The notes beneath the pieces are model-generated. The model saw nothing but the letters and a program-made list of their open reading frames with translations, was not told the origin of the DNA and made no database searches. This document shows positions 10,997-43,731 of a DNA stretch of 50,507 bases, one piece after another. Each line of letters opens with the position of its first letter. Position 1 is the stretch's first letter. The DNA lies in assembly GCA_036496425.1 (NCBI GenBank), contig DASXLG010000344.1, positions 1 through 50,507 on the forward strand. Direction: 5' to 3'. The DNA is from Terriglobia bacterium. GTDB lineage: Bacteria > Acidobacteriota > Terriglobia > 20CM-2-55-15. The position numbers were made by a program, and so were the translations under genes.

Positions 10997-11509
10997 GATT
11001 CATTTCCGAAAAAATCGGTCCATAAATCGCAAATTTGGATTCGTTTGCCGGAAAATGGATCCAGTTTTTAAAAAACGAATCCACACATGCCAAAACTGGA
11101 TCCATTTTTGGAGAAATGGATCCAGTTTCCGAGAAATGAATCCACAAACGGCAAATGTGGATTCATTTTCCAGAAAATGGATCCAGTTTTTAAAAAATTG
11201 CATCCACAAATCGCAAACATGCATCCATTTTTGGAGAAACCGATTCGCTTTCAAGAAAATCGATCCATAAATGGCAAATTTGTATTCCTTTTCTGGAAAA
11301 TGCGTCCACAAATGGCAGACGTGCATTCATTTTTGGAGAAATGGATGCCATTTTTGAAAAAGTGATCCATAAACCGCAATTCTCGATCCATTTTCTGGAG
11401 AAATGGATCCAACTTTTAAAAATGTGCATCCATAAATGACAAAACTGGATTCATTTTCCGCGACATGAATCCAGTTTTGAAAAAATCAATCCATGAATGG
11501 CAAATCATG
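10997..11509 (+). repeat. Higher-order tandem repeat: ~25 monomers of 20-21 bp in A-B-C order
   Basis: The unit starts are marked by (G/A/C)AT(C/T)CA and fall at 10997, 11018, 11038, 11058, 11078, 11099, 11119, 11139, 11160, 11180, 11201, 11222, 11242, 11262, 11283, 11303, 11324, 11344, 11364, 11385, 11406, 11427, 11448, 11468 and 11488. Three monomer types recur in order: A like ATCCATAAATGGCAAATTTG, B like ATTCATTTTCTGGAAAATGG, C like ATCCAGTTTTTAAAAAATCG. The A-B-C set is 61-62 bp and repeats about eight times, with one C missing between 11283 and 11303. The block is AT-rich in GC-rich DNA. Many monomers are partly palindromic (ATCCATTTTTGGAGAAATGG). The 20/21 spacing breaks reading frames, so it is not a coding repeat. 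Confidence 0.92.
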
Positions 11510-29683: not shown

Positions 29684-29790
29684 TCTTGAGGCTGCTCCCT
29701 ATCGGGCTTGCGCTTCGTCTCTTGAGGCTGCTCCCTATCGGGCTTGCGCTTCGCCTCTTGAGGCTGCTCCCTATCGGGCTTGCGCTTCGC
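29684..29790 (+). repeat. 36-bp tandem repeat, three copies
   Basis: The unit (CTTGAGGCTGCTCCCTATCG then GGCTTGCGCTTCGCCT) starts at 29685, 29721 and 29757, with one base change between copies 1 and 2. On the minus strand it encodes an open 12-residue repeat in frame with the preceding gene, but that gene's stop comes first. It lies between the small membrane protein and the ATPase. Related to 8291-8354. Confidence 0.9.
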
Positions 29791-30732: not shown

Positions 30733-30893
30733 GAGGTTTTGAAAAAAGCCAGCGGGCTACCTGTGTGTGACCTTCCATTCTCTGCACTGAATCATGCTTC
30801 CTCGCCGGCCTCCCGTAGATTTTCGGACTCAAAACCCGCCACGTCGAGATGCAAGTGATTGACACGACGAACACTTGCTCTGGATTTGCCGCG

Positions 30894-30910
30894 TGGCAGC
30901 CGGTGTGCAA
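30894..30910 (+). promoter_or_regulatory. Possible sigma-54 promoter of the exopolysaccharide cluster
   Basis: TGGCAG-CCGGT-GTGCAA matches the -24/-12 pattern TGGCAC-N5-TTGCA with two deviations. It lies 24 bp before the first gene (30934), leaving a leader of about 15 bases that includes the RBS GGGGAGG. No sigma-54 activator gene is in the window. A sigma-70-like TTGACA at 30859 is an alternative. Confidence 0.35.
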
Positions 30911-30933
30911 GAACGGCGGGGAGGAAAGTGGTA

Positions 30934-31578
30934 ATGAGAACATCAGGAGCGGCAGCGCTGATCATCATCCTGGCCGGAATGCTTGCCGGGCAGGAGCCCG
31001 GTTTCCAGCAACGGCACCCCCGATATCGGATCGAAATCGGGGATGTGGTGGCTTTCACATTCACGTTCACTCCGGACTACAATCAGACAGTCACGGTCCA
31101 GCCCGACGGCTACATTACTCTCCGCGAGGCCGGCGACATTCAGGTTCTCGATAAAACAACGCAGGAAGTCGTCGACATCGTCCGCTCGGCCTACGGCAAA
31201 GTACTCCACGAACCCGAGATCACTATAGAGCTTAAGGATTTCGAGAAGCCCTACTTTGTAGTCGGCGGTGAAGTGCAGCATCCCGGCAAATTCGACCTGC
31301 GCGGCGACACCACTGTCGTTCAGGCCGTGACCCTGGCCGGCGGACTTAACGACCGCGCGCTGAACTCGCAGATCTTACTGTTCAGACGCGTATCCAAGGA
31401 TCTGGTCGAAGTAAAAAAAGTCGATATGAAGCATATGGTCAACAGCGGAAACCTGTCCGAAGACATGCATCTGCAGCCGGGCGACATGATTCTGGTCCCC
31501 CGCAACAAGATGTCGAAAATCAGCCGCTTCATACCCTTCCCCAGTCTCGGGATGTACTTCAGCCCTTCGATTCCTTGA
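30934..31578 (+). CDS. Outer-membrane polysaccharide export protein (Wza-like, short)
   Basis: A 214-residue secreted protein (signal AAALIIILAGMLAGQEPG; no lipobox Cys). The poly-export domain is seen in YRIEIGDVVAFTFTFTPDYN, followed by QPDGYITLREAGDIQVLDKT. An SLBB domain follows (YFVVGGEVQHPGKFDLRGDT then AGGLND). The protein is shorter than E. coli Wza, which has further domains, but fits the export proteins of Wzx/Wzy-type exopolysaccharide systems. It forms the channel across the outer membrane. ATG at 30934 follows GGGGAGG; the frame continues 25 codons upstream. First gene of the cluster. Confidence 0.9.
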   Translation: MRTSGAAALIIILAGMLAGQEPGFQQRHPRYRIEIGDVVAFTFTFTPDYNQTVTVQPDGYITLREAGDIQVLDKTTQEVVDIVRSAYGKVLHEPEITIELKDFEKPYFVVGGEVQHPGKFDLRGDTTVVQAVTLAGGLNDRALNSQILLFRRVSKDLVEVKKVDMKHMVNSGNLSEDMHLQPGDMILVPRNKMSKISRFIPFPSLGMYFSPSIP

Positions 31579-31596: not shown

Positions 31597-33060
31597 ATGA
31601 AGCAGCTACCAGTCTCATCATTATCGACAGTAAAACCTCCAACCGCGCGCGACTGTGCGGCAGTCGGTTTCCGGCATGTGCACCTCATGGCGTGGTCTTT
31701 CATCTTCATCTTCGGTGGCGTCGTGCTCGCCACGATGCTAATGCCGCGGCAATACGAAGCTGAATTCAAGATATTGGTAAAAAACGAACGCGCCGACCCC
31801 CTCGTCACTACGGATAAAGACCATTCGGCGGCGGCCCCCGAGGTGACGGAACAGGATCTGAACTCCGAAGCCGAACTGCTCAAGAGCCGGGATCTTCTCG
31901 AGAAAGTTGCTGTGGCGGCGGGCACGTCTTCAGCCGAGGAAGCGGCATTGTACCGGGCCACGCTGGACCTGGAGAAAAAGGTAATCGTTGAACCGATCAA
32001 GAAAACAAAACTGATCCGGGTAACGTACCGCTCGACCAGTCCCGACCGGGCCCGCAGTACCCTTCAGATTCTAAGCCGGCTGTATTTCGAGAAGCATCTC
32101 GAGGTCCATCGTGTGGCCGGCGCGGCCGGCTTCTTCCAGGCACAGACCGAGCAATACAACAGGCAACTCCACGACACCCAGGCGGCAATGTCGCAGTTTG
32201 CGGCGGACACCGGCGTTGTTGAGGCGCCGCTCGCCAAAGAAATTACCGTACGGAAGCTGAATGAGTCTGAAGCGGACGTGAAGCAGACCCGCGCCGCCAT
32301 AGCAGAGACGGAACAACGCATCGCAGCTCTCGAAAACGAGGAGGCGGCCACCGGTCCGCGCCTGACAACTCAGGTTCGCACGGCAACCAATCCTTACTTG
32401 ATGCAGCAGCTCAAAACGACCCTTCTGAGCCTGGAGCTGAAACGCACGGAGCTGTTGACCAGGTTTTCACCCGGCTATCGGACAGTCCAGGAGGTGGAAA
32501 CCCAGATCTCGCAGGCTCGCGAAGCTCTGTCAAATGCCGAAAACAATCCGGTTCGTGAGGAAACTACCGACCGTGACGCCACTCACGAGTGGCTGAAATC
32601 GGAATTGGCAAAATCTCACGCGGATCTCCAGGGCTTGCAGGCCAAGGTCGCGGCCACCACGCAGATTGTCGAATCCTACCGCGAGCAGGCCCGCAAGCTG
32701 AACGACGCAGACATCGCCGAGCAGGAGCTTGCTCGTAAACAAAAGACCGCCGAAGAAAACTACCTTTTGTATTCACACAAGCAGGAGGAGGCACGCATTT
32801 CAGATGCGCTGGACCGTCAACGCATCGTAAACGTCTCGATCGCAGAACCTCCAATGCCGCCGCAATCGCCCGCCGGTCCCTCGAGGCTTTTGAATCTGGG
32901 ATTGGGCCTTTTGCTGTCCATCCTGGCGAGCCTGACGATTGCGATTGCCGCCGACTGTCTGGATCGTTCGTTCCGGACTCCACGTGAAGTCGAAATCTTA
33001 TTGAACGTTCCCGTTCTGGCGGCATTACCGGCCGAATGCGGAGCAGGAGAATACATATGA
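31597..33060 (+). CDS. Wzz-type polysaccharide chain-length/co-polymerase protein
   Basis: A 487-residue inner-membrane protein. TM1 is about 31-50 (MAWSFIFIFGGVVLATML) and TM2 about 441-463 (LLNLGLGLLLSILASLTIAI). The large periplasmic part between them is coiled-coil-rich (QTRAAIAETEQRIAALENEE, ELARKQKTAEENYLLY). The Pro-rich segment PPMPPQSPAGPSR before TM2 is typical. It sets chain length with the polymerase and the cytoplasmic ATPase encoded next. The start has RBS AAAGGAG, 19 bp after the export gene. The stop overlaps the next start. Confidence 0.9.
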   Translation: MKQLPVSSLSTVKPPTARDCAAVGFRHVHLMAWSFIFIFGGVVLATMLMPRQYEAEFKILVKNERADPLVTTDKDHSAAAPEVTEQDLNSEAELLKSRDLLEKVAVAAGTSSAEEAALYRATLDLEKKVIVEPIKKTKLIRVTYRSTSPDRARSTLQILSRLYFEKHLEVHRVAGAAGFFQAQTEQYNRQLHDTQAAMSQFAADTGVVEAPLAKEITVRKLNESEADVKQTRAAIAETEQRIAALENEEAATGPRLTTQVRTATNPYLMQQLKTTLLSLELKRTELLTRFSPGYRTVQEVETQISQAREALSNAENNPVREETTDRDATHEWLKSELAKSHADLQGLQAKVAATTQIVESYREQARKLNDADIAEQELARKQKTAEENYLLYSHKQEEARISDALDRQRIVNVSIAEPPMPPQSPAGPSRLLNLGLGLLLSILASLTIAIAADCLDRSFRTPREVEILLNVPVLAALPAECGAGEYI

Positions 33061-33794
33061 GCAACGAAATCGATGTTTTCCCAACCTATAAACAGGCGTT
33101 TTTACTCAAGGTAAAGCATGCCGGATCTGCGCTGCCTGCGGCAAAGGTGCGCGACCGCCTCAGGCAGCAGAGGGCTCACCGGGAGCTGGTCCATCTCGTG
33201 CAGCGCCTGTTTCTCAACGGCCCCCAGAGCCCGCAGGCCGTGGTCTTTTCCGCCGCCGAGTCCGGAAGCGGCTGCACGTTTGTGTGCACCCGGACGGCGG
33301 CCATCCTTGCCAGTCAGCTGGAAGAGCCGGTGTGCGTGGTGGATGCGAACTTCTGGTCGTCCGGCATCGGGCAACAATTTGCATTCGAGGACGGCGCCAA
33401 CACCACCCAGTACGCGGAATGGACGCTGATGCCGGTCGGAATGAATTACTCCGATGCAAAGACGTCCAACTTGTGGCTGGCTTCCTGCAAATCTGCGATG
33501 ACGGACCGTCGCCGCCTGGTGAACCTGGAGCACTTTCAAACACTCATCGAGGATCTGCGAAAAGATTTCAATTACATCCTCGTCGATGCCCCGCCCCTGG
33601 CCGAGAGCTCCGAGGCTGCAGGGTTCGCCCGAGCAACGGATGGTCTCGTGCTGGTGTTGCAAGCCCACGACACACGCCGTGAGGTCGCACAGCGGGCAAA
33701 AGAACTGCTCGACGCCGGAAGCATTCCCGTTCTCGGCGCCGTTCTGAACAAGCGCACATACCCGATTCCAGAATTCATCTACCGGAGGTTGTAA
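33057..33794 (+). CDS. BY-kinase-like ATPase with altered Walker A (Lys replaced by Cys)
   Basis: A 245-residue protein in the place of the CapB/CpsD-type tyrosine kinase. Walker A' (VCVVDAN, about 92-98) and Walker B (YILVDAPPL) are present and the ParA/MinD-like fold is evident. Walker A, however, reads AESGSGCT (67-74): the Lys that contacts the ATP phosphates is Cys, and codon TGC supports this. Only two Tyr remain near the C-terminus, so the usual Tyr cluster is absent. It probably has no normal kinase activity and may instead regulate Wzz. ATG at 33057 overlaps the Wzz stop; RBS is GCAGGAG. Confidence 0.85.
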   Translation: MSNEIDVFPTYKQAFLLKVKHAGSALPAAKVRDRLRQQRAHRELVHLVQRLFLNGPQSPQAVVFSAAESGSGCTFVCTRTAAILASQLEEPVCVVDANFWSSGIGQQFAFEDGANTTQYAEWTLMPVGMNYSDAKTSNLWLASCKSAMTDRRRLVNLEHFQTLIEDLRKDFNYILVDAPPLAESSEAAGFARATDGLVLVLQAHDTRREVAQRAKELLDAGSIPVLGAVLNKRTYPIPEFIYRRL

Positions 33795-38028: not shown

Positions 38029-39071
38029 ACGTCACCCGCATCAATCCCCTGGAAGATCGGCGATGGAGCCTGTTGGTTCAGACGCATCCCCAAGCCTCGG
38101 TCTTTCACACACCGGCCTGGCTGGAATCGCTGCGGCGGACATACCGGTACGAACCTGTGGCTTATGTCCTGGAAGACAGCGGACATCTTTTCGCTGGAAT
38201 CCCCTTCTGCTCGGTGAGCAGCGTGTTCACGGGCAGCCGTCTCGTGTCGCTGCCGTTTTCCGATCATTGCCAGCCCCTGGTTGCCGATGCCGCTCAATTC
38301 GAAATGCTGTTGGCTGCCGCGGAACGTGACGCCACGCGCCAAAGCCTGAAGTATTTGGAAGTCCGGCCACTGCCGGCCGGCTTGAACATGGAAACCATAG
38401 GAGCGCTGGGTCCAAACAATGCCGTGGTTGTTCACAAGCTGGACATCAGCCGGACCGAAGAGCAGTTGCTCGCGAGTTTTCATTCCGATTGCATCCGCCG
38501 CAAAATCGGAAAAGCCGATCGGGAGCATCTGCATTACGAAGAAGGCAGGTCTGAAAAGCTGCTCCTGCAGTTCTACTCCATGCTTCTCATGACCCGCCGC
38601 CGGCATGGACTCCCGCCTCAGCCGATGAAATGGTTCCGGAATCTGATGGAGTGCTTCGGCGAGAACTTGAAGATCTGCCTGGCATCGAAGGACGGAACGG
38701 CCATTGCCAGCATTCTCACACTCTCGTTCAACAAAACGCTCGTATACAAGTACGGCTGTTCCGATCCCCGTTACAACTCCGCCGCCGGCTCTGTCTTTCT
38801 GCTTTGGCAGGCTATCCGGCGCGCCAAAGCAGCCGGACTGACTGAAATGGACATGGGACGCAGCGACTACAGCACTCCAGGTCTCATTACTTTCAAGGAT
38901 CGCTGGGGGGCGGCGCAGATACCGGTCAACTACTTCAGATCCGGCCCCAGGCGCAGGACGGCGACCGCCCCGAAATCCAAAATGAATGCGGCGGCGAAAC
39001 GGCTGCTGACGATTGTTCCGGATTCGATGTTCAGCGCGTTGGGAGGATTACTTTACCGCCATGTCGGCTAA
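38025..39071 (+). CDS. FemAB-like GNAT acyltransferase, first copy
   Basis: A 348-residue protein with two GNAT-like halves. HTPAWLESLRRTYRYEPVAY, LEVRPLPAGLNME and KIGKADREHLHYEEGRSEKL are the conserved segments. The C-terminal half (AIASILTLSFNKTLVYKYGC then FLLWQAIRRAKAAGLTEMDM) is the second GNAT half. Proteins of this type (FemAB-related, linked to PEP-CTERM/XrtA clusters) probably attach an aminoacyl or acyl group to a polysaccharide precursor. ATG at 38025 has the RBS GGAGGAG and overlaps the preceding stop; the frame continues upstream as shadow. A second copy is at 43738-44880. Confidence 0.8.
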   Translation: MNVTRINPLEDRRWSLLVQTHPQASVFHTPAWLESLRRTYRYEPVAYVLEDSGHLFAGIPFCSVSSVFTGSRLVSLPFSDHCQPLVADAAQFEMLLAAAERDATRQSLKYLEVRPLPAGLNMETIGALGPNNAVVVHKLDISRTEEQLLASFHSDCIRRKIGKADREHLHYEEGRSEKLLLQFYSMLLMTRRRHGLPPQPMKWFRNLMECFGENLKICLASKDGTAIASILTLSFNKTLVYKYGCSDPRYNSAAGSVFLLWQAIRRAKAAGLTEMDMGRSDYSTPGLITFKDRWGAAQIPVNYFRSGPRRRTATAPKSKMNAAAKRLLTIVPDSMFSALGGLLYRHVG

Positions 39072-40248
39072 TGTTCTCAGAGATCACTACCTGTGTCCGC
39101 AGAGTTACATTCTCGACATACCGTTCGATGCGGATCAGGTCATCGACAATTTGCGTATGGAACGGTACGCCAGTACAAAGCCAGGCTCCAGCCTTTGCCA
39201 TCAGATAGCACGAAAGATTTACTACGGCCTTCGTCCGCTGATGGGTGTCGGCATTCGCAAGCATATTCAAAGAGCCTATTTGAACGGATGGAAGGATCTG
39301 ACCTTTCCACATTGGCCTGTCGACCGGACCGTGGAGTCCATCCTTGAAAGCCTGGTGATGCTCTCCATCGAAACCGGAAGCCTGAAGGCAATGCCTTTTG
39401 CCTGGTTCTGGCCTTGGGGCTCTTCGGGCTGCCTCATCATGACGCACGACATCGAGACAGCCACCGGCCGCGACTTTGCCCCGAAACTTGCCGATATCGA
39501 TGCGTCGTTTGGATTCACGCCTTCTTTCCAGGTCGTTCCCGAAGAGCGTTACGAGGTCACTGAAGACTTTCTGGATTCTCTAAGGGCAAGACGGTGTGAG
39601 ATCAACCTGCACGGACTCAACCATGACGACCGCTTGTTCGAAAACAGACAAGCCTTCCGCCATCGTGCGGCGAAGATCAACGGCTACGCCCGGCGGTATG
39701 GGGCAGCCGGTTTCCGATCGCCAGTGCTGTACAGGGTTCTCGACTGGTTCGATGAATTCGATTTCTCCTATGACATGTCCGTCCCCAACTGCGGGCATCT
39801 CGATCCGCAACGCGGCGGGTGCTGTACGGTGATGCCATATTTCATCGGCAACATACTCGAACTACCGCTGACCATGTCTCAGGACTATTCCATCTTTCAT
39901 TTCCTCCGGCAGCATTCGATCGATCTATGGAAGCGGCAGATCGACCTTGTTCTTGAAAAACACGGCCTCATCAGCTTCAACGTGCATCCTGATTACATCA
40001 TCGAGGAGCCCTACCTCAGTCTCTATCACAAGCTGCTGGAGCATTTGGCCAGGGTGCGCGAAGAGCGCAATGTCTGGAGTGCTTTTCCCAACCAGGTGAA
40101 TCAGTGGTGGAGAGAGCGGCGCAACCGCCCCGAAGTCAATGCGCGCGCCCGGATCGAAAAGGGCCGCCTCGTTTATGAGATTGCCGGTTCTGCAGATTTA
40201 GGCCTAAGGAGCGCAGAATGGCAGACCTTCGCCCAGCACGCCGCTTGA
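39061..40248 (+). CDS. Polysaccharide deacetylase-fold protein (long form)
   Basis: A 395-residue protein. GCLIMTHDIETATGRDFAPK carries the HD-type metal residues (His-Asp), and EINLHGLNHDDRLFENRQAF carries the second metal His (HGLNHD). GFRSPVLYRVLDWF is the GFRxP segment of NodB-like folds. It probably removes an acetyl or acyl group from the polysaccharide or its precursor. ATG at 39061 overlaps the FemAB stop by 11 bp, while the longer frame from 39013 is within that gene. No signal is visible, so a cytoplasmic site is likely. Confidence 0.78.
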   Translation: MSANVLRDHYLCPQSYILDIPFDADQVIDNLRMERYASTKPGSSLCHQIARKIYYGLRPLMGVGIRKHIQRAYLNGWKDLTFPHWPVDRTVESILESLVMLSIETGSLKAMPFAWFWPWGSSGCLIMTHDIETATGRDFAPKLADIDASFGFTPSFQVVPEERYEVTEDFLDSLRARRCEINLHGLNHDDRLFENRQAFRHRAAKINGYARRYGAAGFRSPVLYRVLDWFDEFDFSYDMSVPNCGHLDPQRGGCCTVMPYFIGNILELPLTMSQDYSIFHFLRQHSIDLWKRQIDLVLEKHGLISFNVHPDYIIEEPYLSLYHKLLEHLARVREERNVWSAFPNQVNQWWRERRNRPEVNARARIEKGRLVYEIAGSADLGLRSAEWQTFAQHAA

Positions 40249-43237: not shown

Positions 43238-43320
43238 GACGGCATAGTAGCAGGCCACAACCAAATCAAGCTTTGGAACGAATCATTTCACTGGACGGGG
43301 CGAACGTGTATGTTGTCCCC

Positions 43321-43731
43321 ATGGGCGAAGATTCGGCCAGCGATCTTACAGGCCACACCGTTTCGAATTACCGCATTACCGGGAAACTGGGCGGCGGCGG
43401 GATGGGTTTGGTTTATAAAGCCGAGGACATCCGGCTTCAGCGTTACGTCGCGCTGAAGTTCGTGTCGGCGGAACTTGCTGCCGACCCCGAAGCCTTGAAC
43501 CGTTTCCGCCGTGAAGCGCGCGCGGCGTCTGCGCTGAATCATCCGAATATCTGCAATTTACGACATCGAGGAACAGAAGCCGCCGCCGAATTCACCAGGC
43601 TGCTGGCGCATCCCGGCCCGGCCGCGGGAGATCCGGTCGATGCCGCAGCCCGACGGCAGCTGGCGCACGCGCCCGTCTCCAGTAACCGATCCGCAACCCA
43701 ACTGATCGACTGGGGGCTCATCCTTGCGTAA
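43321..43731 (+). pseudogene. Ser/Thr protein kinase (Hanks type) with deleted core, fused to TPR end
   Basis: The frame holds a normal kinase N-lobe: [20 protein letters not shown] (Gly loop), [11 protein letters not shown] (ATP Lys), [18 protein letters not shown] (helix C). Then the usual HRD and DFG motifs never appear. The sequence jumps to [20 protein letters not shown] followed by RRQLAHA, which resembles the last TPR repeats of the long kinase-TPR proteins of Acidobacteriota. YDIEEQ, the expected next kinase residues, occurs in another frame. So a large internal part was deleted and a small frameshift added. It starts at ATG 43321; a TTG at 43273 is also in frame. Not functional as a kinase. 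Confidence 0.7.

Follow-up and report, generated by a model that had tools for sequence, protein, structure and literature searches.

Current models have Wzc-type machines for polysaccharide export cycling via tyrosine phosphorylation. For EcpK/EpsV and HfsB/HfsA a model of binding without phosphorylation has been published, and the published pseudokinases related to bacterial tyrosine kinases (BY-kinases) include EcpK, HfsB and those surveyed by Cuthbertson et al., as reported in PMC12004946. EcpK of Myxococcus xanthus is a stand-alone BY-kinase-like protein without Walker A or a tyrosine tail, and its partner EpsV has no kinase domain and a short cytoplasmic tail; EcpK also lacks helix 1 and strand 1, and the EpsV tail has been modelled as both (PMC12004946). 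HfsB of Caulobacter crescentus is likewise described as a stand-alone pseudokinase with a kinase-less co-polymerase, HfsA (PMC12004946). Here we describe a gene in a 50,507-nucleotide stretch of a Terriglobia bacterium (contig DASXLG010000344.1; the whole stretch is called the window below), the product of which, judging from its sequence and from analogy with EcpK and HfsB, is probably a catalytically dead stand-alone BY pseudokinase, serving as the cytoplasmic partner of the Wzz protein encoded upstream and acting by binding. The features concerned are the following.

31597-33060, plus strand: Wzz-type polysaccharide co-polymerase without kinase domain, 487 amino acids; PF02706 only; TIGR03007 at 151.5 bits (cut-off 278.85)
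32950-33057, plus strand: cytoplasmic tail of Wzz, ADCLDRSFRTPREVEILLNVPVLAALPAECGAGEYI, the end of the second membrane helix being judged by eye; likely stand-in for BY-kinase helix 1 and strand 1
33057-33794, plus strand: putative BY-pseudokinase gene, translation 245 amino acids; TIGR01007 at 61.6 bits (cut-off 108.05); family of 89
33177-33218, plus strand: helix 41-54, HRELVHLVQRLFLN, at the site of the BY-kinase octamer motif EX2RX2R, which is not kept
33258-33278, plus strand: degenerate Walker A, ESGSGCT; codon of Cys73 at 33273-33275
33330-33356, plus strand: degenerate Walker A', VCVVDANFW, with Asn for the second Asp and Trp for Arg; includes the family-typical Cys93
33570-33596, plus strand: Walker B, NYILVDAPP, kept in the window protein
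33744-33791, plus strand: family tail, LNKRTYPIPEFIYRRL, replacing the Tyr cluster; Arg233, Pro238 and Tyr242 conserved

The translation of 33057-33794 on the plus strand reads MSNEIDV...VVFSAAESGSGCTFVC...VCVVDANFWSS...NYILVDAPP...VLNKRTYPIPEFIYRRL*. A longer ATG frame begins at 33036, and the start at 33057 is backed by the relatives, most of which open with MS(R/K)NFELL or similar. The Wzz open reading frame overlaps this start codon by four bases (ATGA), which bears out the coupling to the Wzz gene claimed in a preliminary description of the window. That description had also read Walker A correctly as ESGSGCT with Cys for Lys: residue 73, at the Lys position, is Cys, and its codon TGC differs in all three bases from both Lys codons, which excludes a single-base sequencing error; an error at this codon was rejected also because the relatives agree. 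It was right about Walker B (YILVDAPP) and mistaken about Walker A', which it had taken to be kept; the window protein has DANFW for the expected DxDxR, in which the first Asp (96) stands but the second Asp is replaced by Asn98 and the Arg by Trp100.

Compared with the described systems, the protein agrees with what characterises pseudokinases of the phosphorylation-independent PCP-2 subfamily (EcpK, HfsB), being a stand-alone homologue without the catalytic residues and the Tyr tail whose partner has no kinase domain; some residues of the site remain. EcpK differs in that it lacks every Walker motif, has a C-terminal helix rich in Lys/Arg and free of Tyr, and is encoded apart from epsV (PMC12004946), whereas the window protein retains Walker B and one Walker A' Asp, has the tail LNKRTYPIPEFIYRRL and is encoded next to its Wzz. 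In CapB/CapA of Staphylococcus aureus kinase and co-polymerase are split as well, but CapB2 is active and has retained its Lys55, its EX2RX2R motif and its Tyr cluster (PMC3795738). The same article reports CapB1 as inactive in vitro despite intact motifs and names PtkB as an inactive BY-kinase. The XrtA-associated tyrosine autokinases of TIGR03018 are alike in their XrtA-type operon neighbours (a TIGR03007-like Wzz and, in the relatives, a TIGR03015-like ATPase); they differ in that the window protein scores 43.7 bits against a cut-off of 230.65. Further related literature includes PMC6813494 and PMC8394532. In the literature covered, mostly outside subscription journals, we found no account of the GxGC form or of this family.

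Pfam assigns the window protein to general P-loop ATPase families only, and the top NCBIfam match is TIGR01007 (polysaccharide tyrosine autokinase), below its cut-off, followed by EpsG and the XrtA-associated autokinase. A sequence search of solved structures returned CapB, VpsO and Wzc. The structure was modelled from two sequences, and the model is weak (mean pLDDT, the predicted local distance difference test, 55.2; pTM, the predicted template modelling score, 0.60); in its fold comparison BY-kinases fill the first 19 rows (Z 13.9-16.9), and the ATPases of the wider fold that follow reach Z 13.8 at most, a small margin. The top row is VpsO (Z 16.9, root-mean-square deviation 3.9, 194 residues aligned), and Wzc and CapB are also among the best matches. 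In a plasmid collection two proteins matched at E 1e-10, both annotated as ordinary kinases and 24-25% identical to the pseudokinase.

The family was delimited in a sample of 399 genomes of the class, with no more than six candidates scored per genome, so that the counts are lower bounds. At least 67 of these genomes have a match at E 1e-17 or better, and the family was found in at least 26 of the 136 genera sampled. In a set of 61 genomes, the source genome and 60 relatives, stand-alone proteins come out clearly ahead of the ordinary BY-kinases as the best matches, though the weakest members overlap with the latter in E-value. Ninety-two loci were fetched, namely 91 rows of the class sample beyond the window's own and L056. 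Left out of the family were L152 (an ordinary fused kinase), L154 (a weak relative that has the family tail and Val for the Lys), and also L149 and L153, which pass the 150-bit limit and were excluded by hand for their different tail; the Lys count is unchanged if they are included. These last two are Lys-less relatives with another C-terminal end, without the PxPxxxY tail. The family consists of 88 loci and the window, 89 in all, and since L143 lacks the P-loop, 88 members were counted for the motifs. A family profile tells the two groups apart better than E-values do: complete members score at least 166.9 bits, the incomplete L143 scores lowest (161.6), ordinary kinases score at most 107.0, and L011 stands between at 132.0; the profile was made from 16 Lys-less members with their tails, and a Lys-bearing member with another tail would therefore score lower. 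The comparison set consists of 22 profile-matching ordinary BY-kinases of the class (L003, L004, L023-L041 and L152; L008 and L010 were unmatched and not counted), picked by similarity to the query and not at random.

The P-loop Lys is present in all 22 ordinary BY-kinases and in none of the 88 family members, a loss beyond chance; the family has Cys in 55 members, Ser in 17, Ala in 6, Val in 5, Gly in 2, and Thr, Ile and Met in one each. Of the suggestion in the preliminary description that relatives form a GxGC(S/T) class, the absence of Lys held, but Cys is the commonest residue and not a universal one. The second Asp of Walker A' is Asn in 69 members, Asp in 10 and another residue in 9, whereas the ordinary kinases keep this Asp in 22/22 and the Arg in 21/22. 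The Walker B Asp177 is kept in 57/88 family members as against 22/22 ordinary kinases, and Gly72, Ser/Thr74, Asp96, Asp98 and Asp177 occur all together in only three members. Two other cysteines are typical of the family, Cys77 (80/88; 1/22 in ordinary BY-kinases) and Cys93 (82/88; 3/22). Both are better kept than the Walker B Asp; their codons lie at 33285-33287 and 33333-33335, and that of Cys73 at 33273-33275.

The octamer helix is altered as well. The pattern EX2[RK]X2[RK] is present in 0/88 family members and in 14/22 ordinary kinases (3 of the 22 are gapped at the first position of the motif); at the three motif positions the window protein has R42, V45 and V48. Phe52 of the same helix is found in every one of the 88 members.

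At the C-terminus the missing Tyr cluster, reported correctly at the outset, is replaced by a tail of the consensus LNxRx(F/Y)PxPxxxY. The stretch from position 231 to the end is 15 residues long in 83/88 members, with Arg233 in 86, Pro238 in 88 and Tyr242 in 88 of the 88 (0, 3 and 15 of the 22 ordinary BY-kinases). The window protein has two Tyr (235 and 242) after Asn231. The comparison of homologues proposed in the preliminary description, for Lys or Cys and for Tyr tails, agrees with it in the tail too, one or two Tyr being found from residue 231 on in 88/88 members and 3-11 in the 22 ordinary kinases. The association of tail and Lys, tallied by hand as 95/0 versus 2/27 (the slightly different tail of L164 counted as family-like and L166 left out), gave a Fisher p of 2.8e-25, which overstates the evidence because the tallied rows are related by descent. 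A search with a 39-residue tail query gave a single match, at E 0.51. A similar tail occurs in PslE of Pseudomonas aeruginosa (PDB 9v75, 9v6l), whose C-terminal stretch INRRRFEVP aligned to L011 (E 7e-4) and which was also matched by the C-terminal 84 residues of the window protein (E 0.002). PslE differs in being a co-polymerase of more than 600 residues, in its unmatched P-loop half and in having no Tyr at the position of Tyr242.

The invariance of Tyr242, together with the two BY-kinase genes of the source genome (L003 and L004, with GEGKS and QDGKS P-loops), would fit a role of the tail as a phospho-acceptor, with a genuine BY-kinase of the cell phosphorylating Tyr242 in trans. We consider this highly unlikely, because both genes are on other contigs, PslE has a similar tail without the Tyr, and the known substrate sites of BY-kinases are Tyr-rich tails (PMC12004946). 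The family also has a basic residue at positions 207, 208 and 233 in 84, 86 and 86 of 88 members, compared with 1, 13 and 0 of the 22 ordinary kinases, and one of these (Arg207, Arg208 or Arg233 in the window protein) could supply the role of Lys from elsewhere in an active kinase or ATPase. Such an active enzyme is highly improbable, since the Walker A' Asp, the Tyr cluster and EX2RX2R are lost together and no conserved substitute Lys was found near the P-loop (8/88 members have a Lys within residues 66-80, at scattered places).

We reconstructed trees with FastTree from 124 sequences, leaving out L166, the P-loop of which is not covered. Without the tail columns, all 97 Lys-less sequences, including a Thermodesulfobacteriota protein, were on one side of a split (local support 0.969), and the same split was recovered from the 169 columns that remain without Walker A, A', B and the tail (support 0.874). 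On the tree without the tail columns Lys versus non-Lys requires one change, and the residue at position 73 requires 18, compared with a mean of 62.4 in 200 shuffles. Since all Lys-less sequences group together even in the tree without the motifs, the P-loop Lys was probably lost a single time in the history of the family. Close pairs are under purifying selection: in 22 pairs (61-98% identical) the ratio of nonsynonymous to synonymous substitution rates (dN/dS) was 0.03-0.26, dS exceeding 1 in 14 of the 22. No internal stop was present in any of the listed family matches of the class sample. A gene decaying without function, which the degenerate motifs by themselves might suggest, is thus a negligible prospect, given these ratios, the absence of internal stops and the conserved tail and operon. 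The one clade, the single Lys loss on the tree, the purifying selection and a Wzz gene in 83/89 flanks give good support to the earlier suggestion of a stable class of pseudokinases.

The source genome encodes one more member of the family, L053 (P-loop ERRSGCS), which lies on another contig (C264) beside its own Wzz gene. Outside the class but in the same phylum, L155, L157, L159 and L161 lack the Lys and have a tail of the family kind, whereas L156, L158, L160 and L162 keep the Lys and do not have the family tail; a phylum-wide sample gave matches in 23/396 genomes at E 1e-14, many of them ordinary kinases. In L011, from Thermodesulfobacteriota, a kinase-like domain is fused to its co-polymerase; Val stands at the Lys position and the tail reads LNKRKFYVPMWLYRTLS. 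L164, a second gene of the same genome, also has Val there and the tail LNRKKMYIPAWLYKLL. One of two loci from a contig search, L012, appeared by eye to be an Mrp-like ATPase and was left out of all counts.

A same-strand Wzz match was found in the fetched flanks of 83/89 loci (that of L085 is weak, 38 bits) and a Wza-like gene in 72/89. The Wzz protein of the window ends about 36 residues past its last hydrophobic segment, judged by eye, and family Wzz proteins end in a cytoplasmic segment of the type DYLDPSFRTPEEVxxxLxxPVLAxxP. A loose regular expression detected this segment in 72/82 Wzz proteins; among the ten misses it is visible by eye in seven, L095 is cut within it, and L042 and L128 end before it. 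We infer that the tail segment RTPxEVxxxLxxPVLA, past the second membrane helix, would dock into the pseudokinase and complete its fold as the helix 1 and strand 1 that this segment forms in fused BY-kinases, and that catalysis is lost, in line with the use of the K540M mutant as inactive Wzc (PMC11986026). On this view the assembly of Wzz, and through it polymer length and export, would be governed by binding and release instead of tyrosine phosphorylation. A division of the fold between pseudokinase and Wzz as in EcpK/EpsV would be the simplest reading, and the control of chain length by binding instead of phosphorylation, as proposed in the preliminary description, is plausible. Regulation of this kind is no new principle, since it has already been published for EcpK/EpsV and HfsB/HfsA.

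Several observations weigh against the interpretation as a dead kinase acting by binding to its upstream Wzz. The Wzz gene is downstream of the pseudokinase in L080, L089 and L092, and of the six loci without Wzz five are cut by contig ends, but L108 is uncut and no same-strand Wzz was found there. The gene immediately upstream encodes an AAA ATPase, not Wzz, in 59/89 loci. In the octamer helix 70/88 members carry Glu43 together with Lys/Arg46, one residue out of register with the motif (4 also have Lys/Arg49), and another helix contact may be retained in this way. The likeness to EcpK and HfsB is drawn from published descriptions, and the weak structure model is of the pseudokinase alone. Gly72, Ser/Thr74, Asp96 and Asp177 are kept together in 54/88 members, regardless of Asp98, which is more than a fully abandoned site predicts. 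The pocket may also be occupied: Wzc(K540M) is shown with ADP in 3LA6 (PMC3795738), and the title of PDB entry 9exo gives Wzc-K540M with MgADP, so that non-binding of ATP is not to be deduced from the loss of Lys. These last points, together with the retention of the Walker B Asp in 44/55 Cys73 members but 13/33 others, are what would be expected of a nucleotide-binding switch without phosphotransfer, in which occupancy by ATP or ADP, not catalysis, alters the affinity for Wzz. We regard such a switch as unlikely, as the second Asp of Walker A' is lost in 78/88 members and the Walker B Asp in 31/88 while the rest of the protein is kept.

The other genes immediately upstream of the pseudokinase are Wzz in 26/89 loci and apparent fusions in two, and two loci are cut by contig ends. 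Wzz adjoins the AAA ATPase gene in 50 of the 59 loci that have it. By regular expression the GxGK(T/S) P-loop is intact in 54/59 of these ATPases. One that was scored belongs to the XrtA/PEP-CTERM type by its match to TIGR03015 (246.3 bits, cut-off 324.5), and of three compared with Pfam the first carries PEGA domains, another a LysM domain and the third neither of these. An ATPase lies directly upstream in, for example, L044, L087 and L054 and is absent from the window's own locus; TIGR03015 has two weaker matches in the source genome, neither of them on the contig of the window. The upstream ATPase may be an energy source or a third partner. In a Sphingomonas cluster an AAA ATPase gene beside Wzz is needed for the polysaccharide (PMC11340318). 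One could imagine that the former nucleotide pocket is now a cysteine site (Cys73 at the Lys position, Cys77 four residues further along and Cys93 shortly before the Walker A' Asp) which switches Wzz by sensing redox state or binding a metal, ATP being hydrolysed by the XrtA-type AAA ATPase of those 59 loci, which do not include the window's; we think this very unlikely. The two apparent ATPase-pseudokinase fusions, L086 and L125, have frames that run through both parts without a stop and are probably sequence errors. They were not used as evidence, since both frames were taken from stop to stop and the usual pseudokinase start is found inside them; L086 has ambiguous bases, and the junction in L125 resembles a broken frame.

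In the window the gene order is Wza-like, Wzz, pseudokinase, sugar-biosynthesis, initiating sugar transferase, glycosyltransferase and deacetylase genes, with an O-antigen-ligase-like gene farther on. The neighbours are the following.

30859-31578, plus strand: outer-membrane export protein (Poly_export, Wza-like); PF02563, PF10531
33797-42281, plus strand: sugar-biosynthesis, initiating transferase, glycosyltransferase, FemAB-like and deacetylase genes in the same run, by Pfam and NCBIfam

The open reading frame at 39013-40248 within the run of sugar genes had no Pfam or NCBIfam match. Elsewhere in the window there are irregular tandem repeats at 11011-11484 (periods of 20 to 123 bases, with repeated GATCCA words), a 36-base repeat in three copies, 98% matching, at 29684-29790 between an ABC transporter gene and a small minus-strand open reading frame, and a short open reading frame at 43273-43731 whose match to a Ser/Thr protein kinase domain is confined to the first quarter of that domain. 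Scans of the window for Rfam families and for tRNA genes gave no hits.

The family is real, stable and old, and is a new, widely sampled form of an already known dead-kinase principle. A clade in which the Lys was apparently lost once and the protein kept supports the view that polysaccharide export has a branch independent of phosphorylation in bacteria other than Myxococcus and Caulobacter. The NCBIfam kinase models match the window protein only below their cut-offs, and as most members have the recognisable tail, they can be distinguished from kinases in annotation. Across the family the pocket has decayed by degrees, from GxGC(S/T) to none, and this gradation is material for probing the role of the nucleotide.

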